A stretch of 64,000 nt of DNA from Gongronella butleri (Eukaryota; Mucoromycota; Mucoromycetes; Mucorales; Cunninghamellaceae): positions 80,491 through 144,490 of the forward strand of contig JAIWZP010000063.1 in NCBI GenBank assembly GCA_025201375.1, written 5' to 3'. The translations under genes were made by a program, and so were the position numbers. A model generated the notes under the pieces. The model was given only the letters and a program-made list of their open reading frames with translations. It was not told the origin of the DNA and searched no databases. Within the stretch, counting starts at the first letter, position 1. Every line of letters starts with the position of its first letter. Below are positions 13,846-52,207 of the stretch, one piece after another.

Positions 13846-14406
13846 TCAATCCTTGACGGAGCCATCGCGTGGCCGATAATCGAGTCCACGACGATCCAAT
13901 TCGTCCTCGACATCCTCGGGGACACGGCCGTACACTCGGATGGCATAGATGCCACGATGGAATTTCTCTAAAAAAAAAAGCAAAAATAGGCGGTGAGTTG
14001 CTACGCCAAGTCTGTTTTGCTCGAATTGGTGTTACTTGTTACTTACCTATCCGTTGCCAGCGAGCGACCCAACTCTCGGCGGGCTGCATGAGCGTGATCA
14101 TACTAGAAAAAGAGCGAGTGAGCTAGACAAACAAGGCGATCGACGCGAATTTTTTACCCGTCAAATTTTGAGCTGGTGCAGTCAGTGACGCGATCGGTGC
14201 TGCCCTTCATGCGCAAGATTTCTTCACAGTTCTCGCATCCGTCTTGCCGAAATTGTGTCGCATTCTGCAGGATGGAGCGAATAAAACAGAAAAAAAAAAA
14301 ACACGTCAATTTCGTCTAAAAGCCCGATGTCACTGCTTACCTTGACAAGCGAGCATAGAAGACAGGCACGTAGCTGCTTCTTTTCTTGAGGTAGAACGTG
14401 GGACAT
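13846..14406 (-). CDS. SPT4: Transcription elongation factor Spt4
   Basis: Four exons (14406-14341, 14264-14158, 14102-14047, 13967-13846) give 116 residues, the usual Spt4 length (human 117). Spt4 pairs with Spt5 (DSIF) to support RNA polymerase II processivity. The N-terminal zinc finger is complete: the RACLLCSLVK pair of cysteines and the later DGCENCEEIL pair. Further family features are VTDCTSSKFDG, PAESWVARWQRI and GIYAIRVYGRVPEDV. The ATG begins MSHVLPQEKKQLRACLLC. The gene follows the Fanzor gene on the same strand, only 244 bases after its stop, so its promoter must overlap the Fanzor 3' region. Confidence 0.95.
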
Positions 14407-14532
14407 GAGAGGTGAGGGGGGTACAGCAAGACGAGGAAAGGAAGGAACCAAGGGCTGAGGTCAAAAGCCCGTTTGATACCTTTTCAATCTCCGCCCTTGT
14501 GCCAAAAAAAAAAGAGCGGCTCACTTCTTGCA

Positions 14533-14633
14533 CTGCAAAAAAAAAAAAAAGCAAAAGTCAGTGACCAACCACATGTCTGCAAAACGACTGCTATGCTCCC
14601 CATTTCACGACTGCCTTTTTTGTCCGTGCTTAC
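14533..14633 (-). other. Intron-like element in the Fanzor 3' region / SPT4 leader
   Basis: On the minus strand, a good donor (TTG then GTAAGC at 14633) 17 bases after the Fanzor stop pairs with a T-tract acceptor ending GCAG at 14533, giving a 101-base intron of the type used by neighbouring genes. It lies outside both reading frames. It could be a Fanzor 3'-UTR intron, an SPT4 5'-UTR intron in a longer transcript, or chance. It sits where Fanzor and TnpB loci usually encode their guide RNA. Confidence 0.4.
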
Positions 14634-14650
14634 CAATAACCTGGCGATCA

Positions 14651-17600
14651 TTATGCAATCATGGTCTGCTTTTTTGGCAGCCAATGGAAGGGGGGTTGTT
14701 GGGGGTCGGGTTCATCGTAAGCCTTTGTGAAGACGGCGGGGCGCGAGTCCTTGTTGTCTGGGTCCAAGGCGGGGAGATTGCGACCATTGATGTTCATGAG
14801 GGCGATGGCACGGATGTTCCGCGCAGCATTGACATCCCGCTGCCAAATCCGCGCGCACCAGGTACAGGTGAGCGCGCCGTGCAGCTTGAAATTGTCAACG
14901 CCGCTGTCACGCTTTGTCACATTCGTGAGGGATCGGCGACCACAAGATGAGCATGTCTTGCTGGTGTATGGCTCTGGTACTTGTACGACGAGCAGTCGAC
15001 ACGCGCGTTGGGCAAGGGCCAGGGCGCGTCGGAGCAGCGCAGGGCGTCCACTTGGCTTGCCGCGCCAATTCATGCGCCGGAATTGCGCGTCGCCAATGCA
15101 AATCAGAGGGCATTTCCCAAATAAGCGCCTGTTGGGTGCTTTGCGCCACCTGGATGGCAAAAAAAAAAAAAAAAAAAAAAAAAAAAGACAATCAATTGAA
15201 TGTTTCTCGTGAATAACCTGGCTCTTGCTCTTGCTCTTGCTTTCTTACTTGAGGTCTTGGTCAACAACCGTGGATGCCGTCTGCCTGCTATGCGTAAAAA
15301 AAATAAAAAATAAAAAAAAGGGGTGGGGATGATGCTTAATGGCAAGATTCTCGGGACAGGGTCGGTCGCTCGTTGTCTCCTCCTTACCTCGCACCGTCTT
15401 GATCTCTGGGCGGCGGCCCCGTGGTGTCTTTGGGCTGATATTTGCTGCCACCGTGGCAAAGGATTCTGACCATTTCTTCTGTTGCTCTTTGCCTGCCTTG
15501 ATAGTTGAGAAATCGCAAGCCTTGATGTGCAAGGGCGTAATGTGCCATGAGGCGAGGCATGGCAGCCAGGACGCTTTCAATATGCTGCGCCATTCTGCTG
15601 GGCATCGACGTCTTGGCGCTGGCCAGCTGGGATTCCAGGTGGGTGATGGTCGAGCCCTCTTGGTCGATATCATTGGCCTTCCAACTCTTGATTTTTGCAT
15701 TGGATCGCTTGATGCCGGCCACATGATCAAATTCGTGAGCAGAAAAACGTCGGACTTGGTGCCGTTGCCCTTTCTCGACGTGGCGGTGGGATTGATGGCG
15801 CGGTATTGACGGCGATCTTGCCTGATTCGACGCCGCATCATGCTTGAGCGGCCGCACTGAGGCAGACCGGACTCGATGGCGAACAGAGGGGGGCCGCGGC
15901 GGCAATGTTGGGTGCGTGGGGCCATAGATGTTGTCGTCCTGGCTAGATCCATCGACTGCCACAAACACTTCAGTCACGCCCGGATCCACGCCCCAAACAT
16001 GGCAGTGTTGGAGATCCTCGGGCTCAATGTCGTCTAGAGTCAGCTGCGTAGGGGCCTTGCCGGTGATTGGGATGCGATAATACAGGGATAGAGCCAAGCC
16101 GTCAGTTGCCAGCGCATTGTCAAACACGGCTTGCTTGGGTCTGGAAAAAAAAAAAAAAAAAAAACGTCAGCCTCATTCTCTTTTTTTTTTTTTTTGCTCT
16201 TTTTTCATCTTTTACTTTCGAATTTTGGTCCAATTGAAGAGTTGGTCGAAGACAGGATGCACCGAGCCGTCGTCAGGCGCTGATTTCGTGCCCTGTTTGT
16301 ACTTTGTGAGGCCCAAAAAGGTCAAAAGGCCCAAAAGGCTTCTATGGGACCAATGGATGTAGCGCAATCTGAAGGAAAGGCTGGGAACCACGGAAAAAAG
16401 ACGGATGGCTGGGCGGGCGATGTAGATTTCGGGCATGAAGGTGTTGTTTTTGATCTTGTGCTTGGTTTCCGTGACAATGTCCTTGATTGCACCTTGGGAT
16501 TCTTGGTCGTCCAATTGCTTTTGGTATGGCAGGCGCGTGATGTCAAGCGAGTGGTCCTTGCCATTGATGATTTTTGTGATGACGCGGGTCAAACGCGATC
16601 GTCGGCGGTAATTGAGGCCTTCCCAGGCTGGCATCTTTTCTTCCAATTGATGCTTGGTCCAAGGAAAGGTTGCCTCGGTGGCGACTTGCGCGGGTCTTGC
16701 AGTATTGTCATCGTTCCAGGCTTCCATCTCCTTGAGGGCGTCGTAGAGAACTTTGAGGAAGAAATGGGGGTATTTTGTCAATGTTGCTGTTGTGACGGAC
16801 GCATTCTGGGAGACGTGGAGTTGTGCCATGGCTGCCGCGCCGACGGTGCTCGTGGACATGGCGTCCGATGCATGCATCATGGAAACGTCGTCGTCGTCCA
16901 AAGGCTCGATTTCCATTGGATGGTCCTCGTCGTCGTCGCCATTGTCGTTGTTGTTGTTGTTGTCATTGGCAGCGGCCATGGCGGCCATGATGCTTGCGAC
17001 TTGAGCGTCTGCGGCTGAGGCATCTGCAGCGGCAGCCTCAGCGTCGGCGTTCTTGGCTGTGGACAAGGCGATCGATGTGGCATGCTTTTGTGCGGCTTGC
17101 TGGGCAAGTTGGTGAGACACGTCTGCGCCACGCCGTGCATTTTCGACGGTGGCCACAAGCACTGCTGAGTAGTCCAATGCGCCACGATATGCTTGGTCTG
17201 CTTGCCGAAAGGATTCTTGTGCAATGGCGGCCATGGCGGCGGGTGCTTGTTCCAAGGCGGCACGTGCAATACTTGCAGCCTCGGCCAACGGTGGGATCAC
17301 AGCCGAATGATGAGCATTTGCGGCATGCGCACATGCATTGTATGCCAAGAGCGCGTTCCGGGCGCCAACATGCATCGTCGCGGCCACGTTGCCGTCAAAT
17401 TCCGTCTCTTGTGCTTGAGCCATGGCGGCGACTTGCGCCTCGGCGGCGGCAGCGTGCAATTCGGCCGCTCGATCGCGTGCGGATTGCAATGCAGCGGCTT
17501 GGAGGGCAGCAGCTTCCGCAATGGCAGCTTCTTGGGCGGCAATGGCAGCTTCCTGGGCGGCAATGGCAGCTTCTTGGGCTGCAGCAGCAGCAGCTTGTGC

Positions 17601-19253
17601 GCCGGCAGACGACTCGGCGGCGACCATCTCTGGTGCAGGCGGCGCCTGGGGAGCGGGCGAGCTGAATGTCAGAGCGGCAATGATCGCATTGCGGTTGGCC
17701 AGGGACATTTCGCGCGCTCGATCATTGGCTTCTTGTCGCTTGCGCGAGGCTTCGGCAATTTGAGCCTTCTCTTCTACGACAGAATCGCCCACCCGCGCCA
17801 ATTTGCTTTCAGCGTGCTGCGCCAGATCGTCCGCGTCGTTCTTCAGCTGCTCTTTTTGCTCCGCCTTCATCTTCTTGTAGTCGGGCAGCTCTGGCGGAAA
17901 CAGCTCGTCTTTGCACACCTTGTCATACGCATACATGGCGTAAGAGCGGCAATGGTGCGGCTTTAGACCCTAAAAGAAAAAAAAAAAGAAAAAAAAGAAA
18001 CCCCCCACACGAAAGTGAGCAATCCTGTGGAGATGCGGCCTGTCCATGAACTTACGGGATGGTCCAACGCAAACTTTGCGGCCAGGTAACGCATGAAGAA
18101 AATCTCAAAGTTTTCGACCACATGGTTCTTCATCATTGTCGCCAATTGCATCGCCGTGTAGTCCGTGACGGTTGCGAATCCATTGGGCTTGCCGTTCACA
18201 CCAACCAGCTTGTTCATGTGGATTTGCGGATGCTCGGTTTTGAATTGATCGAATGCTTGTAAAAAGGCAGTGCGCGTGTCGTTGTCCGCAAAGAGGGCCT
18301 TGTTGGAGACGGGATTACCAAGAATCAGCTGAAACACTGCAATGAAAAACGCCTGTGTAAACAGGGCACGTGGGACGTGGCCACCGCTGTGGAGGATGTC
18401 GATGACGTATTTTTGAGTGAACAGAATGGCATTGATGGCGAGATGTCGATTGAATGTGACGATGTTGTGGATGCCATCCAGGAGGATGCGCTGATCGTCG
18501 TCGGTAATGTCATTGCTCAGTAGAGAGGCCAGACCATGCTTGATTGTCGTTCGACGCGTCTTGCCAAGGCGCTCCTTTGTTTTCACCGACTTGCGCTTGA
18601 TGTAATCTGGGCAGAGCTGATTCGTAGGTCTTGCGTGGGTGTATGCCAATTCAAGACGCGCCTTGGCCTCGGCACGGAGGCGCTCCACGTCGGGATCGTC
18701 TTGAGCAGCAACGGGGTCCGCATGTCCCTCGATCAGTGCCGTCGCCTCGTCATCCAGCCGGGCAGCCGCGCTCTTGCATCGAGGACAAGGATTTTGTACA
18801 GCCGCAGAACTTGCCTTGGTCGCCGCCGCAAATTCTTCCTTGGCGCTGGTCTTTTTTTCCTTCTCATCCTTGTTTTGTCGGCGTTTGGCGGTCATCCGTC
18901 CCTTGCCCTTTTTTTGGCGCTTGGCTAAGATTAAAAAAAAAAAAAAAAGTGAGAGGCTGCTCTTTAGCGACGCGTCTTTCTGCTCTTTTTAGCTTACCAC
19001 TAGTATCGCTGGATGTCCCGGCCTCGGATGCTGCTTGAATTTGCTCTGTTGTCGCTCCAGCGGCGTCGTCCGCCGCGACTTCTCCTTGGCCGTCACTTTG
19101 TTGTCCTCCAATCGGCGCCTCCCCGTCTTGCTGCTCGACGCGAGCCACCGTCGCTGCCGTCTCACCTTCCTCACCTTCCTCGCCCTGTTCTTCCTGTTGT
19201 GCTGCACGTGCCTTTGCGTCAAGTTTCTCCTTTACAATGGAAAAAAACGGCAT
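14651..19253 (-). CDS. Fanzor (eukaryotic TnpB-like RNA-guided endonuclease)
   Basis: Six exons (19253-18998, 18924-18056, 17969-16216, 16140-15388, 15287-15249, 15149-14651) join in consistent phase to 1,389 residues. The C terminus fits the published Fanzor signature D-X(125-275)-[TS][TS]XX-C4 finger-X(5-50)-RD. Asp1012 lies in CHVWGVDPGVTEVFVAVDG (RuvC-I); 273 residues later comes YTSKTCSSC (Thr1286, Ser1287, Cys1290, Cys1293), then TCTWC (Cys1319, Cys1322), then Arg-Asp 1328-1329 in WQRDVNAARNI (RuvC-III). FSAHEFDHVAG and the region before RuvC-I also look Fanzor-like. The N-terminal half is helical with a Lys/Arg cluster (KRQKKGKGRMTAKRRQ) that may be a nuclear signal. Exon 3 carries a long Ala/Gln-rich insertion. 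The family cuts DNA guided by an RNA encoded near its 3' end. Activity is inferred. The stretch just after VDGSSQDD is poorly conserved and could hide an annotation error. Confidence 0.88.
17530..17592. repeat. 21-bp tandem repeat inside Fanzor exon 3
   Basis: About three copies of a 21-base unit (plus strand reads like CTTCTTGGGCGGCAATGGCAG). On the coding strand it encodes a repeated seven-residue unit AAQEAAI within the Ala-rich insertion. It points to recent in-frame expansion. Confidence 0.8.
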
Positions 19254-19713
19254 CGCTGCGTGTAGGGATAAACAAGAAGGTAATGGGGAAGAAAAGGGAA
19301 AACTCAAATCCCCGCTCGCTCCCTTTTTTTTTTTTATCGTCTCATTTTTGATCACCTCCCCCGCCCTTTTTTTTTTCTTTGACAAATCCACAGCTCTCAT
19401 CCACCTCAAAAATGATCCTCAAATATCATGGCTATCTTGGAAGCTTAAATAGAACAGCAGCGCATGTATATCTTCTTCCAAGGATCGTTTTACTGTGCCA
19501 CTGCTTTTTAAACGGAGAAACAAAAGAGAAAACGCGTCGCACATCTTTGTCACAATAGCATCTTCTGGAAATTCGCCCAATCAATTCTTCCTTGGCCCAT
19601 TAAAGGCAACCCTCAGCGAGTTTTTTTTTGCTGTGCTGGACGCTCCCCTTTTTCTGCACGCACCTCTTCCCTGTTTCTTTCTTTCTTTTTTTTTTTATTT
19701 GACAAGGGTTGCG
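19254..19713. promoter_or_regulatory. Shared divergent promoter region (Fanzor / UNC80-like gene)
   Basis: The 460 bases between the two divergent start codons must contain both promoters. It is T-rich on both sides. An in-frame upstream frame precedes the UNC80-like ATG but has no conserved features. An acceptor-like CTACACGCAG just before the Fanzor ATG could end a 5'-UTR intron. No clear TATA box was found. Confidence 0.4.
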
Positions 19714-22700
19714 ATGGCGCAGGCTGAGCATGACACGGTGATCCACATGCCGCATGAGGGCCGTCTGGGCAAGCCTTTGCATCAGGTGCTCACCAAGCTG
19801 GACAAGCGCAAGCGGCCGGCGCCATTTTACGACCTTGACACGCCGTGCGCGCCGCATGACCTTGAAGACACGATTGACCTTGTTCTTGAGCTGCGACGGC
19901 TGCTTGCTGGCGATGTTCTTGACGCTCCGTAGGTTGCAACAAGGAAAAAAAAGAAGGAGGAAAAAATAAAACCTTGGAATTTTTTTTTTTGCGTAGGCCA
20001 CAAGAGCTGCTCGGGCTGCTGCTGCCGTGCTTGGAAGACCTTGTGCTCAACGATTGCCGATACACGGTGGCCAATCCGCGCCCATTCCGGCCACCATGCA
20101 CGCTACAGGCACTGATGATTGACATTGCAACGCTCCTTGCAACGCTAACCAATGATCCGCCCACACTATATCGCATTGGCCTCGCCATGCTCCCTGCATT
20201 CGACGCTTTTCCTCTGCACAGCTTCTCGGCCATCAAGGCCAACCTTGTCGGCTTTTTTGTCAACCATCTGCTGCCCAAGCTCATCCTTTCAGACAAGCTC
20301 CAGCACCCTCCAATACCAAAAGGTACGCTTCTTTTTCCAGTTTTCCATTTTTTTCCATTTTTTTTCTCTTGATGGCATGTTTTGATCCCCTCCCTCCAAT
20401 TTTTTTTAAACAATAGACGCGCCTGTGATCCAGGTGCAAAGCCCGGATGACGGCCGCGGGCGTCCGTCGCTGACCATTGATACGCGTCCACTGTCCGAAT
20501 CGGTTGATCCGCCGTCGCGACACGACATGTACAAGGACGCGTTGCTCGCGCCGCTGCTTGCGCTGTTGCTGCCGTTTCTAGAGACGCCCAGGGAGGGTGG
20601 GTATCACGTGCATCGTGCGCTGCGGTTCATGTTGCAGCAAAAAGCGGATTTGCATCTTGATTTGCTACAGATCATCGCGTGCAATGTGCCGACGCGGTTC
20701 CATGCGTGCCAAATCTTGTTCCAATACTATTTTGTCAGTCTGGGGCACCTCGTCATTGCCAAGCCGCTTCCAAAACTCAATGCACCAAGCGAAACAACGA
20801 CGGCCGCGTCTTCTCGTGCCGGCACGCCTGCATCGGACGGATCCAGGCACGACGATATTGACGACATGAACGACCACGTGTGGTATCCGCATCTCTTTCC
20901 TCCATCACAACGACCATTGCAAGAAAATGGAGCAAACGAGCGGTCCCCTGGCGGCAAAGGGTCCTCGTCGACGCCAAAGCAGCCGCATATACACAAGCAC
21001 CATCGACGTAAGGGATCTGTGCTGGAATTAATGCACGATGAGGTGGACACGTCGTTCTGCGCCGAGTGTTACCAAGGGATTGTTGGGTTTGGGCTGAAAT
21101 GTTACCAATGTCGTCGCAACGTGCACTATTCGTGCTACACGGATTATCTTGGCAACGACGACCTTGACATCATGCTGTACATCAAGGAGAGTGGGATGCA
21201 AAAGGTGGTGAGCCCGCAATTCTGCCACATTCCGCTACAGCCGCGATTTGTGGATCTTGCCGATACAAATCACCATGATCCCACGGGCCCACCACTGCCT
21301 CCGCCGCCGCCAGCCACCATTGCCATGTACGGGCATCAATTCCAGCTGGTGAATCTATTTACATTGCTCCTGTGCGCTTGCTGCCGGTTGCCATTATGGG
21401 GGATCTCGCAACAGGGCTATCGGTGCTATATTTGCAATCGATTTGTTCACCAGGCGTGTCTTTTGGATGTGCACCAGCACCATTGCAAGCCGTATCAGCC
21501 ATTCCTCGAGTCAGAGACGCGTGTATCGATTTCGCGCCTTGCCGAGTCCCTGGAACACCATTTCAAGGATATGATACCTCAATCGCGTGGCGATCTCGAG
21601 GGCCGCAGCTACGACCACGTAGCCGCCATCACGCACGTGCTCACGCTGCAGCGGCATTTGCTCTATTATGGCGTCACGTCCGGATGCTTGCTTTTAGACG
21701 ATGATCAGGATGTATTTGCTCGTGAAAGTGCCGATCATCCGCTCATCTCCCCGCGTATGATGCTCAATGACGGGTACACGGACGAAACGCCTCTTGGCCT
21801 TGGCCTGTTTGCGCCTGCACTCGCACACTGCCACGATGTGCTTGAAAACAAGCTGTACACACCTTCCGCCTTTTTTGCCGACGAGAACCACGCGCCCGTG
21901 GTAGTGCCGACGCGCGGCCACTATTTACTCAGCTTTGACGCGTATCTGAGCCACGTGTGCGCGTGCATGAAGGCTCGCAAGTCGAGCCACGCGCCGTATC
22001 AGGCGTACGATGTGGATCATGCGCAGCAACAGACAATGACAACGACGGCCATGCGCGACTGGCTCATGGCGCATTGGCGCATTGAGACTCCGACGCTCGC
22101 CGAAATTGTATTGCAGCACATGCGGAATATGGGCCTGTTTGAGCGGTTTGACGCGTCGCCTGTGCTTTTTTCACCATTGGGGACGCCCGCAACATGCATT
22201 TTCCCTGTGCCGTATGCGATTGACGCGTCGTGTCACGTGGACACGCTGCTCAACGCGATTGACGCGTGCCTGGATGACATTGACGTGTCGGTCAATGAGT
22301 GTGCGCTGCTGTTGCTTACGCGACGATGCTGGCCAGACCCATCGATGCCGTCACACGTATGCCAGCAGCTCATGGCCACGCTACTTGGCTGGATCCTCAC
22401 CGAGGACGACAAACTCGCAACAATTTATGCCACGTTTGCTCAATCGCAGCAATTGCATCTGCCTGGTGTGCGCCAACAAGAAAAATCCTCCACATATGGC
22501 GCCGCAGCAAGCTCTTCGCGCCTCAATGGCGCCTCTACGCCCCACGTCGTGGGCGCAGGCAATGCACACCAGTATGTTGTTGCGAGGCAAAGGCTACGCG
22601 ACCGATATGTCGCGCCTTGGCTTGCCAAAGTACACAAATTGGACCAAATCGCGTTTGCCACGCACCTTCGTCAAGGCATTGACGCCGTCGTCGACCGTAT

Positions 22701-41704: not shown

Positions 41705-42437
41705 TCCCCCCACCACTCTTTTTGCCATCCAATTCTCCTCCCTCGTTGATATTTATTGTATTTGGTCCCTTCCACCCACCCATCCTTCTTTATTTTGCCT
41801 CTTGTCACAAATTAAACAAAAAAATTGAACACGTTATTGCGGAATGGCGGTGCGAAAAAACAGGCATTGCAAGTACGACGCGTTCTTTTTGTTTTTTTTT
41901 GCATGCCACCACACGTGTCTCAACGGCGCGAACAATGCAGCCAATGAACGCGCGCAATGCACGCGTTCTTGTATTCCATTGGTTCGGCTAATCGGCCGCC
42001 GAATTGCCGAAAAACACGCGTTTCTTGAACGGCGCCATAAAATTAGCATGTTACGGCCATACGATTCTGAAAGCGCCAGATCCCGTCCGATCTCTGCAGC
42101 GATCCAGAATACGGCCTGGTTAGTACTGCGGTGAGAGATCACGCGGGAATACCAGGTGCTGTAATTTTTTATATAAACTACTTTTTTTTGTGCAATTCTT
42201 ATTTTATTTTGCATGTTGTTCTGTTTTTTTTTTTTTGTTTTTTGTTTTGTGCGTGGTGCGAGGCATGCTGCGCAACAGAGGCCAATCTGAAACGAGCGAT
42301 TTGGGCAAAGAGTGACGGCTTGCGGGGTTCAAATTCCCACTTTTGGTGCCAAACCTTGCATTTTTTTCGTGTTTGCCACTTGCCCCCCTTTTTTTTCTTT
42401 CTTTCGCCCTTTTTTCTTTTTTTTTCGTACCTTACAT
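41705..42437. other. Intergenic region between Cla4 and the first F-box gene
   Basis: No gene seen. It includes the kinase 3' region and a T-rich leader before the F-box ATG. Several ACGCG words occur around 41875-42030. Confidence 0.6.
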
Positions 42438-44276
42438 ATGGTTGACTTGCCGCTGGAGCTAGTGACGCTCATTTTATGCCACATGAGTGAGGACGACTTG
42501 CTAGAAAATGCTCGATTTGTCAATCGTGAATGGTCTCGTATTGCGCTAAAGGAAATCGTCAGGGATAAAATCTTCCATTTCGAAGACCTCGACATCCTCC
42601 GGCGCCACCTGAATTGCTTCCTTGCCAATCCAAACGCGCCCTTGCCGATAAATTACGTGGAATTCAACATGATGGAATTCGATCAGTCTTCACCTTATAT
42701 GTTTTACAACCGAGACAGCTTTGACGCGTACTGCTCGCTTGCCACTGCAGTGGCACGTCACCTGAGCAAAATCGATTGGATGTGGTTGTTTTTCAGAATC
42801 GATACACGCCGCCAGCCATATCAAGGGACCTTCATACAGCAACTCGTCCAAAATTCGACAATGAAAAAGCTTACACTCGACGTTACCATGCCTCCTCCAT
42901 TTCTTCACAATCTCTTGCCCTTTATCACGCCTCACCTATGCAGCCTTGAGCTCCAAACGGGCAATGGTTCTCAAAGCAGGGTTGATTTGGGCTTCATGCT
43001 TTCGTTGCTGCGCCGCTTTCCCAGTCTGAAGACAGTCATGATGGATTTCGTCAGCTGTAAAGTCGATGGCGTCCCTCTGGCAGACTTTGTTTGCACATCG
43101 TTAGCTGAGCATCCGCAGCATTTCAACATGGACACGGTGAATTTGTTATTTTGGAAAGACAGATGGGATCGCACCACGCCCCAGGAACGTCCGTCGGCAC
43201 ATCTTGCAAATGTTGCCTTGTTCTTTTGGCACCTCATGCCACGGCTTCGTCATTTCCTCATCAGTATCCACGACGACATGATCCATCAAAATCTTCCATT
43301 GGACTGCGCAATGCCTCCTCTTCTTGTCAACTACCCCAAGCACGTGCGTGTCTTGTATCGTGACCCGCCCACGGGCAGTCAATTGCCAACTCCCGCTGAT
43401 ACGATGGCGGCGGTCCCACTCATTCCTTGTGTTGACACCGATACCAAGCTCATGGATGTGGAATTGGGATACAACTCCATTTCCGCACTTGCACTTATAC
43501 CTCGATCGCGAATTAACACGCTCGAAATCGGTATAGCGTCTGGAGACCACGACCGGCTCAAAACCTTGCCATTGGCACTGCAAGGTCTAACCTCATTGAC
43601 GCGTCTGGAATTCTATGGCAATGGTCATCTGCCCGACGTGGAATCCATGTTCCCCGTTGAAACGCCAAATTGTAATCTCAAGGAGCTGGAATTCCGACGC
43701 TGCACACTCGATGACCCTGGTGCCCTGGAGAGGATGCTGCTTCGATTGCCGGCCTTGGCGACTCTCAGGCTGTCCAAGCTGAATTTTGCCTCGTGGTCCT
43801 ATGAACCAACCATGTTGTTTGAACATCCGTGGGTGCCCGCGCTGCGCTCTTTCATTGTCCCGCTCCAGTGGATGTCTTTGCCAACGGATGCCGCCGAAAT
43901 CTCCATTGATCACGACTTTGAAAAGTCGCGCGTGTGCTTTGTTCTGGCAAGCGACGCGCCTCCCAAAGAACCCAATGTGCAAGTGTGGACACACCGCAAT
44001 TTAGAATACTACGATACATCCACCAAAAAGGGACCTAGTAGGCTACGTAATGGCTACCTTCCTTGGATTTTCGAGCGCATTGTCTCGAACCGGAAGCTCA
44101 GGAAGACGACCGCGCCGAGACCAGGCTACCATCCGGGCCCCTTGGTGTTGCACGATCTTTATGCGCACCCTGGCGCGATTGTTTACATGTGCAAGTCCCT
44201 CAAGCAGGTGAAAATTTGTGAACGAAAAAAACACGTGTATGATTTATCATCCTATGAAACTGTTCCATTGTTCTAA
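42438..44276 (+). CDS. F-box protein with leucine-rich C-terminal region (copy A)
   Basis: Single exon, 612 residues. The N-terminal F-box (residues 2-45: VDLPLELVTLILCHMSEDDL, then NARFVNREWSRIALKEI) would bind Skp1 and recruit an SCF ubiquitin ligase. The remainder shows irregular leucine-rich segments (LTSLTRLEFYGNGHL, NCNLKELEFRRCTL, LPALATLRLSKLNF) that likely form the substrate-binding surface. It has the same plan and size as the two F-box genes downstream but is much more diverged, suggesting an older duplication. The ATG is the first after a long T-rich leader; the longer upstream frame is poly-Phe. Target unknown. Confidence 0.85.
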   Translation: MVDLPLELVTLILCHMSEDDLLENARFVNREWSRIALKEIVRDKIFHFEDLDILRRHLNCFLANPNAPLPINYVEFNMMEFDQSSPYMFYNRDSFDAYCSLATAVARHLSKIDWMWLFFRIDTRRQPYQGTFIQQLVQNSTMKKLTLDVTMPPPFLHNLLPFITPHLCSLELQTGNGSQSRVDLGFMLSLLRRFPSLKTVMMDFVSCKVDGVPLADFVCTSLAEHPQHFNMDTVNLLFWKDRWDRTTPQERPSAHLANVALFFWHLMPRLRHFLISIHDDMIHQNLPLDCAMPPLLVNYPKHVRVLYRDPPTGSQLPTPADTMAAVPLIPCVDTDTKLMDVELGYNSISALALIPRSRINTLEIGIASGDHDRLKTLPLALQGLTSLTRLEFYGNGHLPDVESMFPVETPNCNLKELEFRRCTLDDPGALERMLLRLPALATLRLSKLNFASWSYEPTMLFEHPWVPALRSFIVPLQWMSLPTDAAEISIDHDFEKSRVCFVLASDAPPKEPNVQVWTHRNLEYYDTSTKKGPSRLRNGYLPWIFERIVSNRKLRKTTAPRPGYHPGPLVLHDLYAHPGAIVYMCKSLKQVKICERKKHVYDLSSYETVPLF

Positions 44277-46657
44277 CTACACCCAGTAATAAACCAGAAA
44301 AATGTAACCACGCCTTTTTATTACTTACATTTGAAACATTTGAAACCTTTACAGCGCTTGGCTACCCATAGCCATCGATGCAAAAGTCCCTGTTTTAACG
44401 AAAATCAAAAGTTTTGTGTGTCATCTCGTGGTCTGCTTCGCGTGAACACATATCCTCACAGAGAGTCCATCGCATGCAACAACTCTGCCGCTCAAAGCAA
44501 GCGCCCAATACACGTGAGAATAGAAAGCCACGCGGGGGGCAATCGCATTTTGTAATCCTTTTGTGAACCAAACACGTCTTTTTACTAGGCTATTCTCCTG
44601 GCAGGGAACAACTTTGCTTCAAGCACACAGTCGGCTGCAATTTTGCCCTTTCATAAAAAAAAAGTTGAATAATGTGCCTTCTTTTTGGTGTTTTTGCATT
44701 TTTTCCCTTTATTTTTTTTTTTTTTTGTCGGACGATCTTCTTAATTTTGTATTACACTCCATTTGATGTAGTGGATTACGTATTACCTACTTGCTTACTG
44801 TAAAACTTTTGCTTATTGCATCAATCTTCCGCGGTGCCTGGGAAAAAAGATTGCTCAAAAAGAAATCACATTTGTACGTTCTGCAAATTTGCATGCCAAT
44901 TCCTCCATGTTATCATGGGCAGTGCTCTTGGAGGCATACCTACTGTAGGTACAGCTTTGCCGATCTGAATAGCGCGCCAGACAAGGCCCAGAAAAAAATT
45001 AATAATGAAGAAAGAAAGATCAATTTTGCCACTTTTGCCCATTTTTTGTCATTTTTCTTAAACAACCGAGTGCAAACTGCAAATACTGTACCTACTGTAA
45101 TTATTGTGAACATGTCGATAATATTTGCATTGGATTCATCTGCACAAGTGTCAGCAGGTCCCCCGGGCATCATTGATGGTGTGGCCGTAGTAGCCAACGT
45201 CACCATGAGATTCAACGGAATTTGCGGGTTCAAATACATCGATCGATTTACTGTAATAATAAAAATTGCAAGAAGGGAAAGGGGATCGGAAGGATGTTTG
45301 GAAGGAAAAGAGGGATGAGAAAAGATCTCGAACAGGGCTCCGGATCATCCTTGATCTGGAAATATTGGCGTGTGCTGTCACAAGATTGACAAAATGTCTA
45401 ATTGGTGATGCTGTGAGGTGATCCGACGCTTATTCAGGTACGTATTTTTTTCAAAAGAGACGCGCTGATGAACCATTCATTGCTTGTGAGATGGTAGCGC
45501 GACAATCTATAGGTGCATTCCCACGCAATGTGACCTGGGCGTACGCAATAAAAGAAGGAAATAATCAAGTGTCCAATTTGGATCATGCCGGTCACCATGC
45601 GTTGTCAATAAAATAAGCTTTGACAGCGTGATTTTCCATCGATCCGAGGATCGCCTGCAAAATCGGCTGATGTCCATAATTGGTGCCTCCGAGGCTTCAA
45701 GGGCGTGCCAGATGGATCGGGTACGCGTGCGCAGGGTTGTTGCAAATGCTTCACTTGCACATTTCGTTGCTTTTCTTTCCGTTTCTTTTTTTTTCAATTT
45801 GTCGCCAATGTCGCGCCTAGCACGCCATTGGCTAGACATTGGTCCGGATGCACGTGATTTTTGGCTGTGCAGACTAATGCTTGGTTTTGACTTGTATTTC
45901 TTGCTTGCTTGTTTCCCTTTCACTTTTTTCTTGATTGGTTCGATTGGCTTGCCTTGCCACGCCATGCGCGTCTTGGCCAGGCACTGATACATACATACAT
46001 GCTTCTTGCTTGGCAAATAATATTGAATACAGTATGATCTTGCCGTGTGTCAATTCGTTTTCTTTTTTTTTTTTAAACGCGCCATTGACGCATCAACGCG
46101 TCAATGGCTCCGAGCGCGTCGGCTCACGTGCTTTTTGCGCACGTTTGCCACTCGACGCGAGCTGGGCCGTGACAACAATGTCTCAATATAAATGGCTGGA
46201 CGCCTGGACCTCTAGCTTTCAGCGCCATGATGTTAAAAAAGACGCTCCGAAATGGCCTAATGAAAGGGATGATTGGTGGCGAGGCGATCCATTCATATCG
46301 TACCTATCATACTCCTCTGAGATGCCAAAAATCAAAACCGGTCAAAATGTCGTACTCTATGATACTTGATAATTGTACCTACAGTATATGTTTTCTGATG
46401 TGAGGGAAAGGAAGAAAATAAGGACGAAGGCTCGAAGGCGAGAGCGGGAATCACGAAAATAGAATAATAGACGAGAAAGAAAAAAAAAGACGCGTTGCCG
46501 CGAACAAACGAAAAGAGACGTGAATGGCGTCAGTTTGAGCTCGCGCCGACCCGCCTGTGCGAGGCGATTGCTATATTTGGATGGCACCCTCGTCACAGTG
46601 TGGACTTTCCTTTTTTTTTTTATGTTTTTGTCCTTCCTTTCACTCTCGTCTTTCTCC

Positions 46658-46689
<32 letters not shown>

Positions 46690-46704
46690 GCCACTCTCAA
46701 ATCA
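44277..46704. other. Intergenic region
   Basis: About 2.4 kb without a convincing gene. Frames of 175 codons (44791-45318, plus) and 169 codons (45507-46016, minus) have no recognisable domain. TACTGTA-type words occur at about 44941, 45087 and 46380. The first copy of the F-box promoter module begins at about 46391. Confidence 0.55.
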
Positions 46705-48513
46705 ATGCCAGACTTGCCCCAGGAGACTATTCTTTTGATTTTGGATCATCTAGAAGTGGAGGAATTGCTACGTGGCGTGTGCTTTGTGAACCGCGCCTGG
46801 TCGCGAGCTGCCAAAGAGGTGTTTTTTAAAAAAAAGATATTTCAATATAATGATCATCGTCCTTTGCGCAAGCTCGTCAACAATGTCACATCCGCGTCGG
46901 ACGTCCATTTCCCCATCAAAAGGATCTATCTTGACATGCATGATTGGAGATCCGTGGCGCCTGATGCAGATTGGTTCATGGTAATAGGCACAGGCTTGCA
47001 TCTGCTTGCTACCCTTGTGCCTCACCTTTGCGCAGTGCAAGACCTGACGCTCCACCTACCCCATACCGATTTCGATCATTGCCAAATGGCCACGCTCAAA
47101 AGTATTGTCGATCTTCCCAACTTGCGCGCCGTTTTTCTGTGTGGGTCAACGCACAGCTGTCTCGTCCTCTCACAGCATTTGGCTTCTCCCCGATTGACGC
47201 ACGTCAAAATTGAATGCTGGAGATCAAATCTCAGAGCGGATCTCCAGCTTTTACTGGCTGCTTTTGACCAGCTTCCGTGTCTTGAAGACCTTGAAGTTTA
47301 TGTTAACACGTTCAAGGTTGAAGGAGTCGTATTACGTGATTTTATCTATGGTGGAGGTCTTGCCAAGCGATCGCCTAGCTTCAATATAAAAAGATTGACC
47401 GTGAACGCTTTGTGCTTCCAGAAAGACGAAGCGCCAGAGTGGCTCTGTCTGCTTGTGTTTTTATTCTACATCGCGCCACGCCTCGACTACCTGCTACTCG
47501 ATATTCACACAAACGCCAGCCATGACGTTTTGCGCCACGTTTTGCCACTAGACAACACGCGGCTGCCCCCGCTTGACTTTGTGTATCCGAAAAAAATGGA
47601 ATTCACAGCCTACCAGCCGGATCCTGCTGCTGAATTCAGTTCCTATCCGCATCTGATGCCTCGATTCGACATCACGCGCCCTCTAATGGACCTGCAACTG
47701 ACCGGACCAGAAGCGATAGCAAAGGCACTTATTCAGCACCTCAATTGCTCTCACATTGGTCGCCTCCAATACATCAGTTCTTCAGAAGATGACCATGAAC
47801 GTCGTGATGATGAAATTGACACCATCGCTCGTCCTTTGAGGCTTGATGCCATGACGTCACTGACATGCCTCGAACTCACAGCACTCCGGATCATTGATTT
47901 GGAAAAAGAATTCCGTGCCGCGATGCCATCGCTGCAGCAATTGAGAAAGCTGAGCATGTTTGAGTGCAGATTTGGCAATCCTTCTCACATTGAACGCCTA
48001 TTGCCTGGATTTCCGAATCTTCAAGAGTTCCAATTGCTCGACTCTGACTATGACACGTATTATTATGAACCCAAGGTGACGCTGGATCATCCATGGTTTC
48101 CAGTGCTGCACTCCATCTTCCTTGGACATCAGCTTGATGTGCACCCTTGGCCAACAGAAAATCCACTACCGTTATGGATTTCTTTGCACACGTCCGCCGA
48201 TAATGTCACACTTTCCGAATATACTCCACAAGGGGTGCTTGTAATCTTACGCAGCCGCCCACCATCTTATGAAACTTGCATCACAATCAAGGTGGAGCGC
48301 AACAAGGTGTTTGAATGTTTGCCTGATCACGACATCCCGCGCTTGTTTGCCCGCGTGCAAGAGCATGAAACACAATTGGCGGCCGGCAACTCTCCCAAGA
48401 AGCCGTCTACACCACTCTCGGCACTTGCAGAAGCTGCCTTTAATTGCATTTGCATTGATCCTAATTTCATGGTGTGGGTGATCAAGCCATTATTGTCATC
48501 GAACACTCCTTAA
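46705..48513 (+). CDS. F-box protein with leucine-rich C-terminal region (copy B)
   Basis: Single exon, 602 residues. F-box at the N terminus (MPDLPQETILLILDHLEVEE, then FVNRAWSRAAKEVFFKKKIF), then leucine-rich segments (MTSLTCLELTALRIIDLEKE, LQQLRKLSMFECRF, FPNLQEFQLLDSDY). It is expected to act as an SCF substrate adaptor. It is nearly collinear with the gene at 50399-52207, which has exactly the same length, and sits at the same place in the 3.7-kb repeat unit. The ATG follows a long T tract; the upstream frame extension is low complexity. Identity with copy C appears high by eye, and the differences include compensating insertions and deletions that leave both frames open. Confidence 0.87.
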   Translation: MPDLPQETILLILDHLEVEELLRGVCFVNRAWSRAAKEVFFKKKIFQYNDHRPLRKLVNNVTSASDVHFPIKRIYLDMHDWRSVAPDADWFMVIGTGLHLLATLVPHLCAVQDLTLHLPHTDFDHCQMATLKSIVDLPNLRAVFLCGSTHSCLVLSQHLASPRLTHVKIECWRSNLRADLQLLLAAFDQLPCLEDLEVYVNTFKVEGVVLRDFIYGGGLAKRSPSFNIKRLTVNALCFQKDEAPEWLCLLVFLFYIAPRLDYLLLDIHTNASHDVLRHVLPLDNTRLPPLDFVYPKKMEFTAYQPDPAAEFSSYPHLMPRFDITRPLMDLQLTGPEAIAKALIQHLNCSHIGRLQYISSSEDDHERRDDEIDTIARPLRLDAMTSLTCLELTALRIIDLEKEFRAAMPSLQQLRKLSMFECRFGNPSHIERLLPGFPNLQEFQLLDSDYDTYYYEPKVTLDHPWFPVLHSIFLGHQLDVHPWPTENPLPLWISLHTSADNVTLSEYTPQGVLVILRSRPPSYETCITIKVERNKVFECLPDHDIPRLFARVQEHETQLAAGNSPKKPSTPLSALAEAAFNCICIDPNFMVWVIKPLLSSNTP

Positions 48514-50398
48514 AACCGATTTATTTCACGAAAATCCAATAAACATGCAGAGTTCGATCGTGGCCAAGTCTGCGTCGTGTTCACGTAAATACAAGTATGA
48601 GCACTGTCGGGCATCCATTGGTGCTCATGCAACGAAAATGACGTATTTGACATTTTAAATCACACAACTTGCCAATTTGGCACTGCAATATATCAAAACG
48701 TGTCTCAATGTGCTGTACGGTAGGTACAGCAGAGAGCTATAAATAACGAGTGGAACTCCTTTTTCAGGCTCTCACACATCATTGTGGTGCCTCGCGTGAA
48801 GATCAACTTTTAGGCGATGGCAGGCGTCCGAACAAAAATTGAAAAATCAGGTATCCAGATATCCGCCAAACTTACACACAAGAGAAGCCTCTTGGAAATG
48901 CCACGAAACATATCAAAAACGAGCTCGATCCATCTGTTGGTTAACGAGCAATGAGCGATTTTGGTTTAAATTTCACACGCGATTCTCATCACAAAGACGC
49001 GTCAATATAGTCGCGCGACGCGTCCACTAGCAAGAGGAGCCCCAGTTACAATGAATAATGAGCAAAAGACGCGTGGAAATCGACGTTTGACGCGGTATTT
49101 CACGCGCCGAAAAATGTCAATGATTTAAAACCGTGTCTAAGAGGCTAAGAAGTCACTTTTTTTTAGTGATCATCGATATCCGCGCACGCAGCAAGCCATG
49201 ATCTTTCTAATGGTGTGAGTTTCGCAGCTTTGTGGTCAATTTTCGTCGAGATGACCTTGGGCTGAAAATTTAGCTCAGAACCCATTTTATGCGGAAACCA
49301 GTCAATGAACCTCTGGTTTTTATTGCCTATTATTGATTATTGGGGTGGCTTTACCATGAGGTTGGGATGGCGTGGCGCTCTGCGGACTTACATTACATCA
49401 TTTTCAAATCCACGACTGTGCCCCTTGGAAAATGCACGATTTTTGAATGTAATCATTGCGCGCCATCCGGGTATCACAGCGCCGCAAGAGCGGGCTCATT
49501 CGAACGAGGGATCATCAAAGGATCGAATCAAAGCAACGAGCCTTGTAGGATGCCTATTTGTTGAAAAGCAATCAAAATACAATGAAAATCGTCTTGTTGC
49601 ATTTTTCTTGAGAAAGGCTCGGTCAGTGTGTATTTTAATGGCCAGGAATGGATTGGAAGACGCCTAGAGCACTTACAAGGCAGTTTTGGCACATCCGGCA
49701 AGCAGCACAAGTTCAAGTAAAAGCGCCGTCAAAATGCGAAATGCATTAAATCGAATACTTCAGGCGCAACAGTGATCCAATCTCTGCCAAGTTTAGATCA
49801 GTTGCCCGTCCTGCACATGGAAGGCACCGTGCAATGTTTTTGGTCTCAATGCCAAGCCTTTGCGGATTATGATCGAAAAAAAAAGAAAAAAATCAAATTG
49901 ACCTTGGCGATCTTGATCATTGTTTCTTCCATGAAAGAGTATCATGGACAAAAGATTTACAGAGGCACGGCCTATTGACCATTAATTTATTATAACGACA
50001 TTTCCAAAAAAAAAAAAAAAAAAAAAAAAAAAGGCGAATGTCAGGTAAAAATGAGCTGACACAATAAACGGGGTCGTTCTTAACAGGTTTTATGATGTGA
50101 GGGAAAGGAAGGAAAGAGAGAGGAATGCACGAAAGCGAGGCAAGGAGAACGATAAAAGAATAGACGAGGAAAAAAAAAAAAGACGCGTTGCCACGAACAA
50201 ACGAAGCGCGCGAACAGACAATCAAATTAAAAGGGGTGGAGCGAAGCGCACTAGGCCTCGCCTAGTCGGAGGCGATTGCCATATTTGGACGGCACTTTCG
50301 TGTTGTTTATCACAGCGCGGACGTTCCTTTTTTTTTTTTGTTTTTGTCCTTCCTTTCACTCTCATATCCCCCCCCCTTTTTTTACCACTCTCAAATCA
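48514..50398. other. Intergenic part of tandem unit 1 and start of unit 2
   Basis: Contains the copy B 3' region (AATAAAC at about 48538), dispersed-repeat copy 2, a long A run (50007-50032) and the second promoter module. No gene recognised. Confidence 0.6.
48836..49600 (+). repeat. Dispersed repeat of about 0.8 kb, copy 2
   Basis: Related to 30090-30870 and to 52516-53310, with the same landmarks in the same order (GAGCAATGAGCGATTTT, GCTTTGTGGTCAATTTT, CTCTGGTTTTTATTGCC, ATTTTCAAATCCACGACT, GGGCTCATTCGAACGAG). As part of the 3.7-kb tandem unit it is closer to copy 3 than to copy 1. Confidence 0.8.
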
Positions 50399-52207
50399 AT
50401 GCCAGACTTGCCCCACGAGACCATTCTTTTGATTTTGGATCATCTAGATGTGAAGGAATTGCTACGTGGCGCGTGGTTTGTGAACCGCGCTTGGTCTCGA
50501 GCTGCCAAAGAGGTGTTTTTAAAAAAAAAGATTTTTCGATTTAATGATCTTCGTCGTTTGCGCAAGCTCGTCAACAATGTCACATCCGCGTCGGACGTCC
50601 ATTTCCCCATCAAAAGGGTCGATCTTGACATGCGTGATTGGAGATCCGTGGCGCCTAATGCAGATTGGTTCGTGGTAATAGGCACAGGGTTGCATCTGCT
50701 TGCTACCCTTGGGCCTCACCTTTACGCAGTGCAAGACCTGACGCTCCACCTACCCAATACCGATTTCGATCATTGTCAAATGGCCACGCTCAAAAGTTTT
50801 GTCCATCTTCCCAACTTGTACACCGTTTCTCTACATGGGTCAAAGCACAGCTGTCTCGCCCTCTCACAACATTTGGCTCCCCAATTGACGTGCGTCAGTG
50901 TTGCCTGCTCGAACAATGGCGACTTGCAGCTTTTGTTGGCAGCTTTTGATCATCTTCCGTGTCTTGAAGACCTTTCAGTTTATGTTTGCAATGTCAAGGT
51001 TGAAGGAGTCGCTTTACGTGATTTTATCTATGGTGGAGGTCTTGCAAAGCGATCGCCTAGCCTCATTATGAAAAGGCTGAGCGTGAGCGCTTCGTGCAGC
51101 CGCAAAGACGAAGCGCCAGAGTGGCTCTGTCTGCTTGTGTTTTTATTCTACATCGCGCCACGTCTCGACCACCTCAGAGTCGACATTTACACAGAAGCCA
51201 GCCAGAAGACTTTGCGCCGCGTTTTGCCACTGGACAGCACGCGGCTGCCCACGCTTGACTTTGTATACCCCAAAAGTATGATTTTCGTAGCTGAGCAGCC
51301 GGATCCTGCTGCAGCACCCAATTCCCATCCGCATCTGATGCCTCGATTCGACATCACGCGCCCTCTGATGGACCTGCAGCTGAATGGAACAGAAGTGACG
51401 GCAATGTTACTTATGCAGCACCTCAATTGCTCTCACATTGGTAGCCTTGATTTCGACAGAACTCTATTGAATGATGACGAAATGGAGGAAGAATACCGTC
51501 GTTTAGAGGAAGGCGACGCCATTTATTGTCCTTTGAAGCTTGACGCCATGACGTCATTGACATGTCTCGAGCTCTCATCACTCCGGATCATTGATTTGGA
51601 AAAAGAATTCCGTGCCGCGATGCCATCACTGCAGCAATTGAGGACGCTGAGAATGGCTGAATGCACACTTCGCAATCCTTCTCAATTGGAACGTCTATTG
51701 CCTGGATTTCCGAATCTTCAAGAATTCGAATTGTTCGACACTAAGTTTGACACGTATTATTATCAACCCAAGGTGAGGCTGGATCATCCATGGTTTCCAG
51801 TGCTGCACTCCATCTTCCTTGGACAACAGCTTGGTGGGCACTCTTTGGCAACACTAAAACCATCACCCTTATGGATTTCTTTGCACACATCTGCCCAAAC
51901 GATCTTACTTTCCGAAAATAATTTACAAGGCGTGCTTATAGACTTACGTAGCCGCCCTCCATCTTGTGAAATTTGCATCACAATCAAGGTGGAGCGCAAC
52001 AAGGTGTATGAATGCTTGCCTGATCACGACGTGCCGCGCTTGCTTGCCCACATACAAGAGCATGAAGAACAATTGGCAAACGGCAACACTCCCAAGAGAC
52101 CGTCTACACCGCTCTCGGCACTTGCGGAAGCTGCCTTTAATCACATTTGCATTTATCCTAATTTCATGGTGCAGGTGATCAAGCCGTTGTCATCAAACAC
52201 TCCTTAG
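50399..52207 (+). CDS. F-box protein with leucine-rich C-terminal region (copy C)
   Basis: Single exon, 602 residues, paralog of copy B. F-box: MPDLPHETILLILDHLDVKE, then FVNRAWSRAAKEVFLKKKIF. Leucine-rich segments follow (MTSLTCLELSSLRIIDLEKE, LQQLRTLRMAECTL, FPNLQEFELFDTKF), and the C terminus is nearly the same as copy B (FMVQVIKPLSSNTP). Most amino-acid differences fall in the leucine-rich region rather than the F-box, as expected if the substrate surface is changing while Skp1 binding is kept. A probable SCF adaptor of unknown target. Confidence 0.87.
   Translation: MPDLPHETILLILDHLDVKELLRGAWFVNRAWSRAAKEVFLKKKIFRFNDLRRLRKLVNNVTSASDVHFPIKRVDLDMRDWRSVAPNADWFVVIGTGLHLLATLGPHLYAVQDLTLHLPNTDFDHCQMATLKSFVHLPNLYTVSLHGSKHSCLALSQHLAPQLTCVSVACSNNGDLQLLLAAFDHLPCLEDLSVYVCNVKVEGVALRDFIYGGGLAKRSPSLIMKRLSVSASCSRKDEAPEWLCLLVFLFYIAPRLDHLRVDIYTEASQKTLRRVLPLDSTRLPTLDFVYPKSMIFVAEQPDPAAAPNSHPHLMPRFDITRPLMDLQLNGTEVTAMLLMQHLNCSHIGSLDFDRTLLNDDEMEEEYRRLEEGDAIYCPLKLDAMTSLTCLELSSLRIIDLEKEFRAAMPSLQQLRTLRMAECTLRNPSQLERLLPGFPNLQEFELFDTKFDTYYYQPKVRLDHPWFPVLHSIFLGQQLGGHSLATLKPSPLWISLHTSAQTILLSENNLQGVLIDLRSRPPSCEICITIKVERNKVYECLPDHDVPRLLAHIQEHEEQLANGNTPKRPSTPLSALAEAAFNHICIYPNFMVQVIKPLSSNTP

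Follow-up and report, generated by a model that had tools for sequence, protein, structure and literature searches.

How does a Fanzor element, which must fit the end of its coding sequence, its guide scaffold and its transposon end into a few dozen bases, supply itself with guide RNA? We asked this of a locus in the fungus Gongronella butleri, in a window of 64,000 nt (the whole stretch analyzed: positions 80,491 to 144,490 of contig JAIWZP010000063.1, GenBank assembly GCA_025201375.1). The window carries on its minus strand a gene for a Fanzor RNA-guided nuclease. The reading that we favor, and hold to be somewhat probable, is that this gene belongs to a mobile Fanzor1 element whose guide RNA (omega-RNA) is made by spliceosomal fusion of an element-encoded scaffold to RNA of the host flank. 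Such joining would, if true, be an unexpected route to a guide RNA.

The Fanzor gene and its protein

The gene has six exons separated by GT-AG introns (Table 1), and these join in phase to encode a protein of 1,389 aa, as a first, sequence-only reading of the locus had proposed. The Fanzor1 signature that this reading saw at the carboxy terminus is there exactly as claimed: D1012 of VDPG, 273 residues, TSKT, the zinc ribbon CSSC...CTWC, five residues and RD (D1329). The published form is D-X(125,275)-[TS][TS]XX-C4 zinc finger-X(5,50)-RD (in excerpts of PMC3627910). Excerpts of Yoon et al. (PMC10711439) give as Fanzor features a DPG in RuvC-I and a glutamate six residues before the zinc ribbon. 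Both are present, the first within VDPG and the second as E1283, which is followed by PYTSKT and then CSSC. The catalytic residues, in the rearranged Fanzor motifs, are D1012, E1283 and D1329. The same reading had proposed a profile search; this matched Cas12f1-like_TNB (PF07282) at 43.5 bits, above the cut-off of 26.3.

Among the best 7,990 candidates scored, at least five relatives with 24–29 per cent identity lie beyond G. butleri: proteins from Absidia, Mucor flavus (two) and Syncephalastrum, and a metagenome protein, P0003. P0003 is 27 per cent identical to the window protein. In searches with its AlphaFold model (nineteen sequences; pLDDT 80, pTM 0.68), the first seven PDB matches are all Fanzor1 chains (SpuFz1, PpFz1 and GtFz1; E 3e-18 to 2e-15) and the eighth is a viral Fanzor2 (E 8e-5). 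TM-scores to the query are 0.46–0.52. This fold evidence concerns the homologue rather than the window protein itself, whose match to GtFz1 by sequence is weak (E 0.058). Together, the motifs, the Pfam match and the homologue's fold support a Fanzor1 with an intact-looking catalytic core, as first suggested, and RNA-guided DNA cleavage is predicted.

The reading frame is supported by a third-position excess in exons 2, 3, 4 and 6 relative to four more distant copies (L011, L012, L014 and L015). An alternative frame for exon 4 was weaker in relatives and was rejected. The ratio of nonsynonymous to synonymous divergence (dN/dS) is 0.22–0.35 for the whole gene in eight pairs and 0.13–0.58 by region and pair. 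The Fanzor family is under purifying selection, which is seen family-wide and not at the window locus alone. Exon 5 is an uncertain member of the gene model: its splice sites are kept in the closer copies, the exon is missing from L014 and L015, it has no codon pattern against L011 and L012, and skipping it would stay in frame. In exon 3, synonymous divergence (dS) from the two closest copies is about 0.17–0.18, compared with 0.02–0.05 in the other exons tested, which suggests a mosaic or gene-conversion history around its Ala-rich stretch. The nr models of these two copies (L009 on C75 and L010 on C1, both G. butleri) read into intron 3 and end there, leaving annotated proteins of 960 and 956 aa without the nuclease domain. 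Because those models stop at exon 3, such loci are easily overlooked.

Element ends, copies and insertion sites

Copies C75 and C1 are 94.7 and 94.6 per cent identical to the window element over 5.1 kb, and we place its ends at 19635 and 14531 because similarity to both copies stops abruptly there. The gene had been thought to lack recognizable transposon ends; the comparison recovers both, reading CAC...GTG with a short terminal inverted repeat, in a multicopy family. The genome holds twenty-two matches to the C-terminal exon. A degenerate copy on C17 contains stops. The right end was read in sixteen copies; C28 has lost it, and five remote loci (L048–L052) were inspected only. Both ends are known in nine copies, on which the counts of target duplications and left ends rest. 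The comparisons of copies draw on one genome with few independent lineages and on MAFFT alignments.

Exact 3-bp target duplications flank six of the nine copies (C1a CAA, C39a GAT, C23 ATA, C18 AGA, C68 TAG and C39b AAC). In the window copy and in C75 the flanking triplets, CAG/CAA, show one mismatch, and C55a has no duplication. Read by eye, the base preceding the duplication is C in all but C55a (8/9), which suggests a C immediately ahead of the target. The termini follow the pattern CAC[ATG]... and ...AGTG. EnSpm/CACTA transposons have ends resembling CACTR...YAGTG and duplicate 3 bp of target. The Fanzor element resembles them in its CAC...GTG ends and 3-bp duplications and differs in that no transposase was recognized in it; the open reading frames (ORFs) of the longer copies C68 and C16 were listed without a profile search. 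Mucorales Fanzors are filed as MuDR-like, with 9-bp duplications, or as unclassified in the relevant part of PMC3627910.

In twelve of sixteen copies the first three flank bases on the right side have A in the middle, by target preference or chance. The C24 copy (L041) resembles an internal-deletion derivative of a C16-type element (L016) and retains the right end with its intron and stem-loops.

The window insertion lies between a divergent pair, SPT4 (ATG at 14406) and a gene for a C1/DEP-domain protein (ATG at 19714; its DEP match falls below the Pfam cut-off). The neighbors had been described as housekeeping genes, which is confirmed for the Spt4 side only. Several insertions in the family lie directly upstream of host genes in the sense orientation, e.g. 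Spt4, TCP-1 and CTNNBL1. We dropped orientation as support, since several insertions sit between divergent genes and it is therefore uninformative. Judged by its ends and copies, the locus is a mobile Fanzor1 element and not a single domesticated gene. Recent activity, also raised by the sequence-only reading, is plausible, given that close open-frame copies occupy separate sites and purifying selection acts on the family.

A terminal intron at the right end

Between the stop codon and the end of the element lies a canonical spliceosomal intron of 101 nt, with a GTAAG donor, a CTGAC branch site, a poly-T tract and a CAG acceptor 2 nt from the transposon end. All sixteen right ends have the donor (GTAAG in fourteen, GTAAA in two) and a CTNAC or CTNAT branch site 18–35 nt before the acceptor. 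In fourteen, the exceptions being C47 and C1b, YAG stands exactly 2 nt before the element end and is the first AG past the branch site. The end itself reads GT in C55a where other copies read TG. Donor and branch site occurred together in 0.3–3.9 per cent of shuffles of eight representatives; the combined P of 7e-9 is a guide only, because these representatives are related. At the left ends, a terminal YAG is found in one of nine copies and CTNAY at 18–35 nt in none (C68 and C39b have one at 36 nt). Because donor, branch site and YAG co-occur at right ends while left ends fail, we take the terminal intron to be genuine and not a by-product of the terminal repeat.

Conserved sequence inside the intron includes GGGGAGCATAGC and ATTGG. 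RNAalifold found no conserved structure in the introns of eleven copies, and shuffles folded as low or lower in 14 of 200 cases for one set of related copies (group 1) and in 81 of 200 for another (group 2, here three copies). An unbroken guide scaffold within the final 100 nt was rejected, as the intron gave no conserved fold. Excision of the entire element from host transcripts by splicing was rejected as well: the leader has no GTAAG, its single GTAAA is not kept by C75 (by eye), and the position of the window element between divergent genes also disfavors it.

Three of the remote loci (L049, L051 and L052) represent a lineage in which a hairpin adjoins a GTAAG donor (by eye), with different element ends and no shared YAG; in L048 and L050 neither the donor with its hairpin nor the shared terminal YAG is clear. 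Scans of viral and genome contig collections returned no relatives of the element's 3′ end from outside the G. butleri genome.

Predicted scaffold stem-loops and pairing across the junction

Two stem-loops (SL1 and SL2) are predicted towards the 3′ end of the gene, where the sequence-only reading had anticipated a guide RNA, though it had missed both these and the intron. They lie in the exon preceding the terminal intron and have compensatory changes in their arms. SL1 reaches into the last codons of the ORF, and in most copies its loop is A-rich and 7 nt long; SL2 abuts the donor. In the spliced form, SL2 is predicted to extend over the junction onto the last two bases of the element, and the compensatory changes include both pairs across the junction.

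For the spliced tails of group 1 (six copies), RNAalifold gives both stem-loops, with pairs reaching two bases past the junction, at an energy of −10.5 that none of 200 shuffles matched. Helix 2, which spans the junction, has six pairs, five of them with changes on both sides, and 96.7 per cent of cells are paired (counted on the named structure over five distinct tails, with two same-tail group 1 copies left out). Sliding the whole structure along the tails lowers pairing to 26–43 per cent. Among 500 shuffles, none reached the observed helix-2 value in four of five measures; in the fifth, the number of pair types, 158 reached it. The junction pairs are C-G and A-U (A-U and U-G in C55a), and both can be formed, by hand, in the ten group 1 and group 2 copies listed. 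Between C55a and C39a one arm change lacks compensation, a G-C having become A-C. When all sixteen dinucleotides were compared at the junction of the window copy, TG was best, with a gain of 2.5 kcal/mol; the unspliced GT gave 0.3.

The distance from loop 1 to the donor is 36–39 nt in eleven copies whose introns span 66–126 nt, and 19–22 nt in C15, C1b and C47. In a distant pair, C18 and C23, a long stem forms after removal of two introns of the 3′ untranslated region. Over its seventeen pairs in C18, of which two involve flank bases, it is perfect, and it has a mismatch in C23; random 22-mers equal it in 46 and 716 of 5,000 trials, respectively. The spliced window RNA, from SL1 through SL2 and TG to 16 nt of flank (a guide length taken from published guides), would be 69 nt long. 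Without splicing, SL2 and the flank would lie a further 101 nt apart. Host flank bases often lengthen SL2 by pairing.

A proposed route to the guide RNA and its alternatives

In the route that we propose, the element transcript would encode the nuclease and carry SL1 and SL2, the scaffold of the guide RNA, at its 3′ end. Transcription would run past the element into host DNA, and the coding introns would be removed. The spliceosome would also remove the terminal intron, which holds the right-end DNA needed for transposition, and would thereby join the scaffold directly to TG and the host flank, the latter becoming the guide. The spliced RNA would be trimmed and loaded on Fanzor, which would cut DNA matching the flank, i.e. 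sites without the element. That the spliceosome assembles the guide RNA in this manner, fusing an ORF-overlapping scaffold exon to flank RNA and keeping the transposition end out, strikes us as slightly better than an even chance. We infer that the terminal intron is spliced in vivo and that the spliced rather than the unspliced RNA is the guide. The nuclease is probably active and may help the element to persist or spread. If the proposal is true, the terminal intron resolves the conflict among coding end, scaffold and transposon end through host machinery, and guide supply depends on splicing. Prediction of eukaryotic omega-RNAs would also have to change, since any scan built on an unbroken scaffold-guide unit would miss spliced ones.

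Several observations weigh against this proposal. RNAalifold gives SL1 but not SL2 for group 2 (four copies; 1/200 shuffles as low) and for a twelve-copy alignment (0/200), and SL2 in group 2 rests on single folds. Inner pairs are broken in C75, C55b and, for one pair, C55a. In the dinucleotide comparison, TG is best of sixteen in only five of the sixteen copies and helpful but not best in three (C16, C24 and C100); the comparison is uninformative in C55a and C55b and gives no clear gain in the other six. C15, C1b and C47 have a shorter scaffold with SL2 weak or absent. The long stem of C23 is no better than 14 per cent of random replacements, and the end of intron 1 in C18 and C23 can pair in that stem's place. 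The conserved intron sequence could be an RNA as well as a DNA signal. The remote loci L048–L052 have no shared terminal YAG, and the arrangement may therefore not extend to every Fanzor of this genome. Finally, the omega-RNA of SpuFz1 is contiguous with the right end of its element, according to excerpts of PMC10432273.

This last point, the conserved intron sequence and the view in excerpts of Xu et al. (PMC11423790) that the region beyond SL1 is little constrained would all suit the chief rival, in which the unspliced transcript is the guide RNA and splicing, by parting scaffold from guide, yields the mRNA, the two competing. This rival fits the position of the acceptor at the scaffold-guide border equally well. 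It does not fit structure and spacing, given that no conserved intron structure was found, SL2 pairs across the spliced junction, and the exonic distance stays constant across introns of differing length; we see it as a possibility well short of even. The terminal intron might instead concern the mRNA only, by splicing onto host exons for 3′-end formation or by sparing the downstream gene, with the guide RNA made in another way. The insertions just upstream of sense host genes named above agree with this, but their orientation is uninformative, several others lying between divergent genes, and the omega-RNA-like stem-loops and junction pairs would be left unexplained. We consider it unlikely.

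There might also be no intron, the right end mimicking one through terminal and subterminal transposition signals (poly-T, CAGTG and ATTGG). The acceptor does partly overlap the terminal repeat, and GCAGTG can likewise be read outward from a single left end, that of C75. Donor, branch site and acceptor nevertheless stand together in fourteen of sixteen copies, and the left ends have no branch site and, in eight of nine, no YAG, which makes mimicry very improbable. Least credible of all, and close to negligible in our estimate, is the possibility raised by the sequence-only reading, that of one domesticated Fanzor gene lacking transposon ends. The open frame and purifying selection agree with domestication, but there are close copies elsewhere with common ends and target duplications, and the selection is seen across the family and not at this locus alone.

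Comparison with known systems

The predicted order of parts in the window RNA (SL1, SL2 and flank) equals the published Fanzor1 omega-RNA layout. Parasitella parasitica, the source of PpFz1, is likewise a Mucorales fungus. In excerpts of Xu et al. (PMC11423790), the SL1 of three Fanzor1 structures comprises seven base pairs, a single SL2 lies between SL1 and the guide in SpuFz1 and PpFz1, and the omega-RNAs measure 150 nt (GtFz1), 90 nt (SpuFz1) and 75 nt (PpFz1). PpFz1 is like the window system, as predicted here, in its short omega-RNA of SL1, one SL2 and guide, and it has the Fanzor1 fold in common with P0003. The window protein differs in its length of 1,389 aa and its long Ala-rich stretch. 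The passages on PpFz1 mention no intron, whereas the predicted window scaffold and guide have one between them. They also report binding of PpFz1 to cyclophilin and list splicing as one of the processes involving cyclophilins, which may be a hint, and only that, toward splicing.

According to excerpts of Saito et al. (PMC10432273), the SpuFz1 scaffold is 75 nt and its guide 14–15 nt, and the GtFz1 omega-RNA overlaps seventeen codons. Like the window element, SpuFz1 of Spizellomyces punctatus belongs to a multicopy element with inverted repeats, and its omega-RNA lies at the gene's 3′ end, as is predicted here; it differs in its single-ORF gene and TA duplications (parts of PMC10432273 and PMC3627910). 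PMC12633428 was also drawn on.

Among the papers listed in literature searches, whose coverage leaves out most subscription papers, none dealt with splicing of a Fanzor guide RNA. In bacterial IStrons that carry TnpB, splicing and omega-RNA production compete. The IStron is a TnpB element with a group I intron, and its transposon end doubles as a splice site near a TnpB-type guide region, as is proposed here (excerpts of PMC4227781). The window element differs in that its intron is spliceosomal, is confined to the right end and is proposed to build the guide RNA and not to oppose it. No group I intron ribozyme was found in an Rfam scan of the whole window at the gathering score, which gave one 5S rRNA only.

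Other features of the window

Table 1. Features of the Fanzor element and its immediate flanks (window coordinates).
Feature	Position	Strand	Basis
Whole Fanzor element (gene sense minus)	14531..19635	-	similarity to C75 and C1 lost abruptly at both ends
Left end CACAGCAAAAAAAAAC..., short terminal inverted repeat	19614..19635	-	
Left target-site copy CAG, one mismatch to right copy CAA	19636..19638	-	
Right target-site copy CAA	14528..14530	-	
Exon 1	18998..19253	-	
Exon 2	18056..18924	-	third-position excess
Exon 3, with Ala-rich stretch	16216..17969	-	third-position excess
Exon 4, RuvC-I with D1012 (DPG)	15388..16140	-	third-position excess, motif
Exon 5, 39 bp, uncertain	15249..15287	-	
Exon 6: E1283, zinc ribbon, D1329, stop codon	14651..15149	-	Pfam, motif
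SL1: 7 bp with bulged A, 7-nt A-rich loop, overlaps last codons	14662..14684	-	folds
SL2, exonic part, up to splice donor	14634..14658	-	folds
Terminal intron, 101 nt: GTAAG, CTGAC, poly-T, CAG	14533..14633	-	
TG, last two bases of element; predicted pairing with CA of SL2 5′ arm once spliced	14531..14532	-	
Predicted guide, first 16 nt of host flank	14515..14530	-	inference, published guide lengths
SPT4 start, downstream host gene, ATG at 14406	14154..14406	-	Pfam Spt4 on 14154-14312

The 5S rRNA gene lies at 42049–42167 (+; 99.9 bits), and an F-box gene follows directly downstream. The region 42312–52207 (+) holds three consecutive F-box/LRR-type ORFs (42312–44276, 46495–48513 and 50276–52207), whose F-box matches are above the Pfam cut-off and whose LRR matches are below it.

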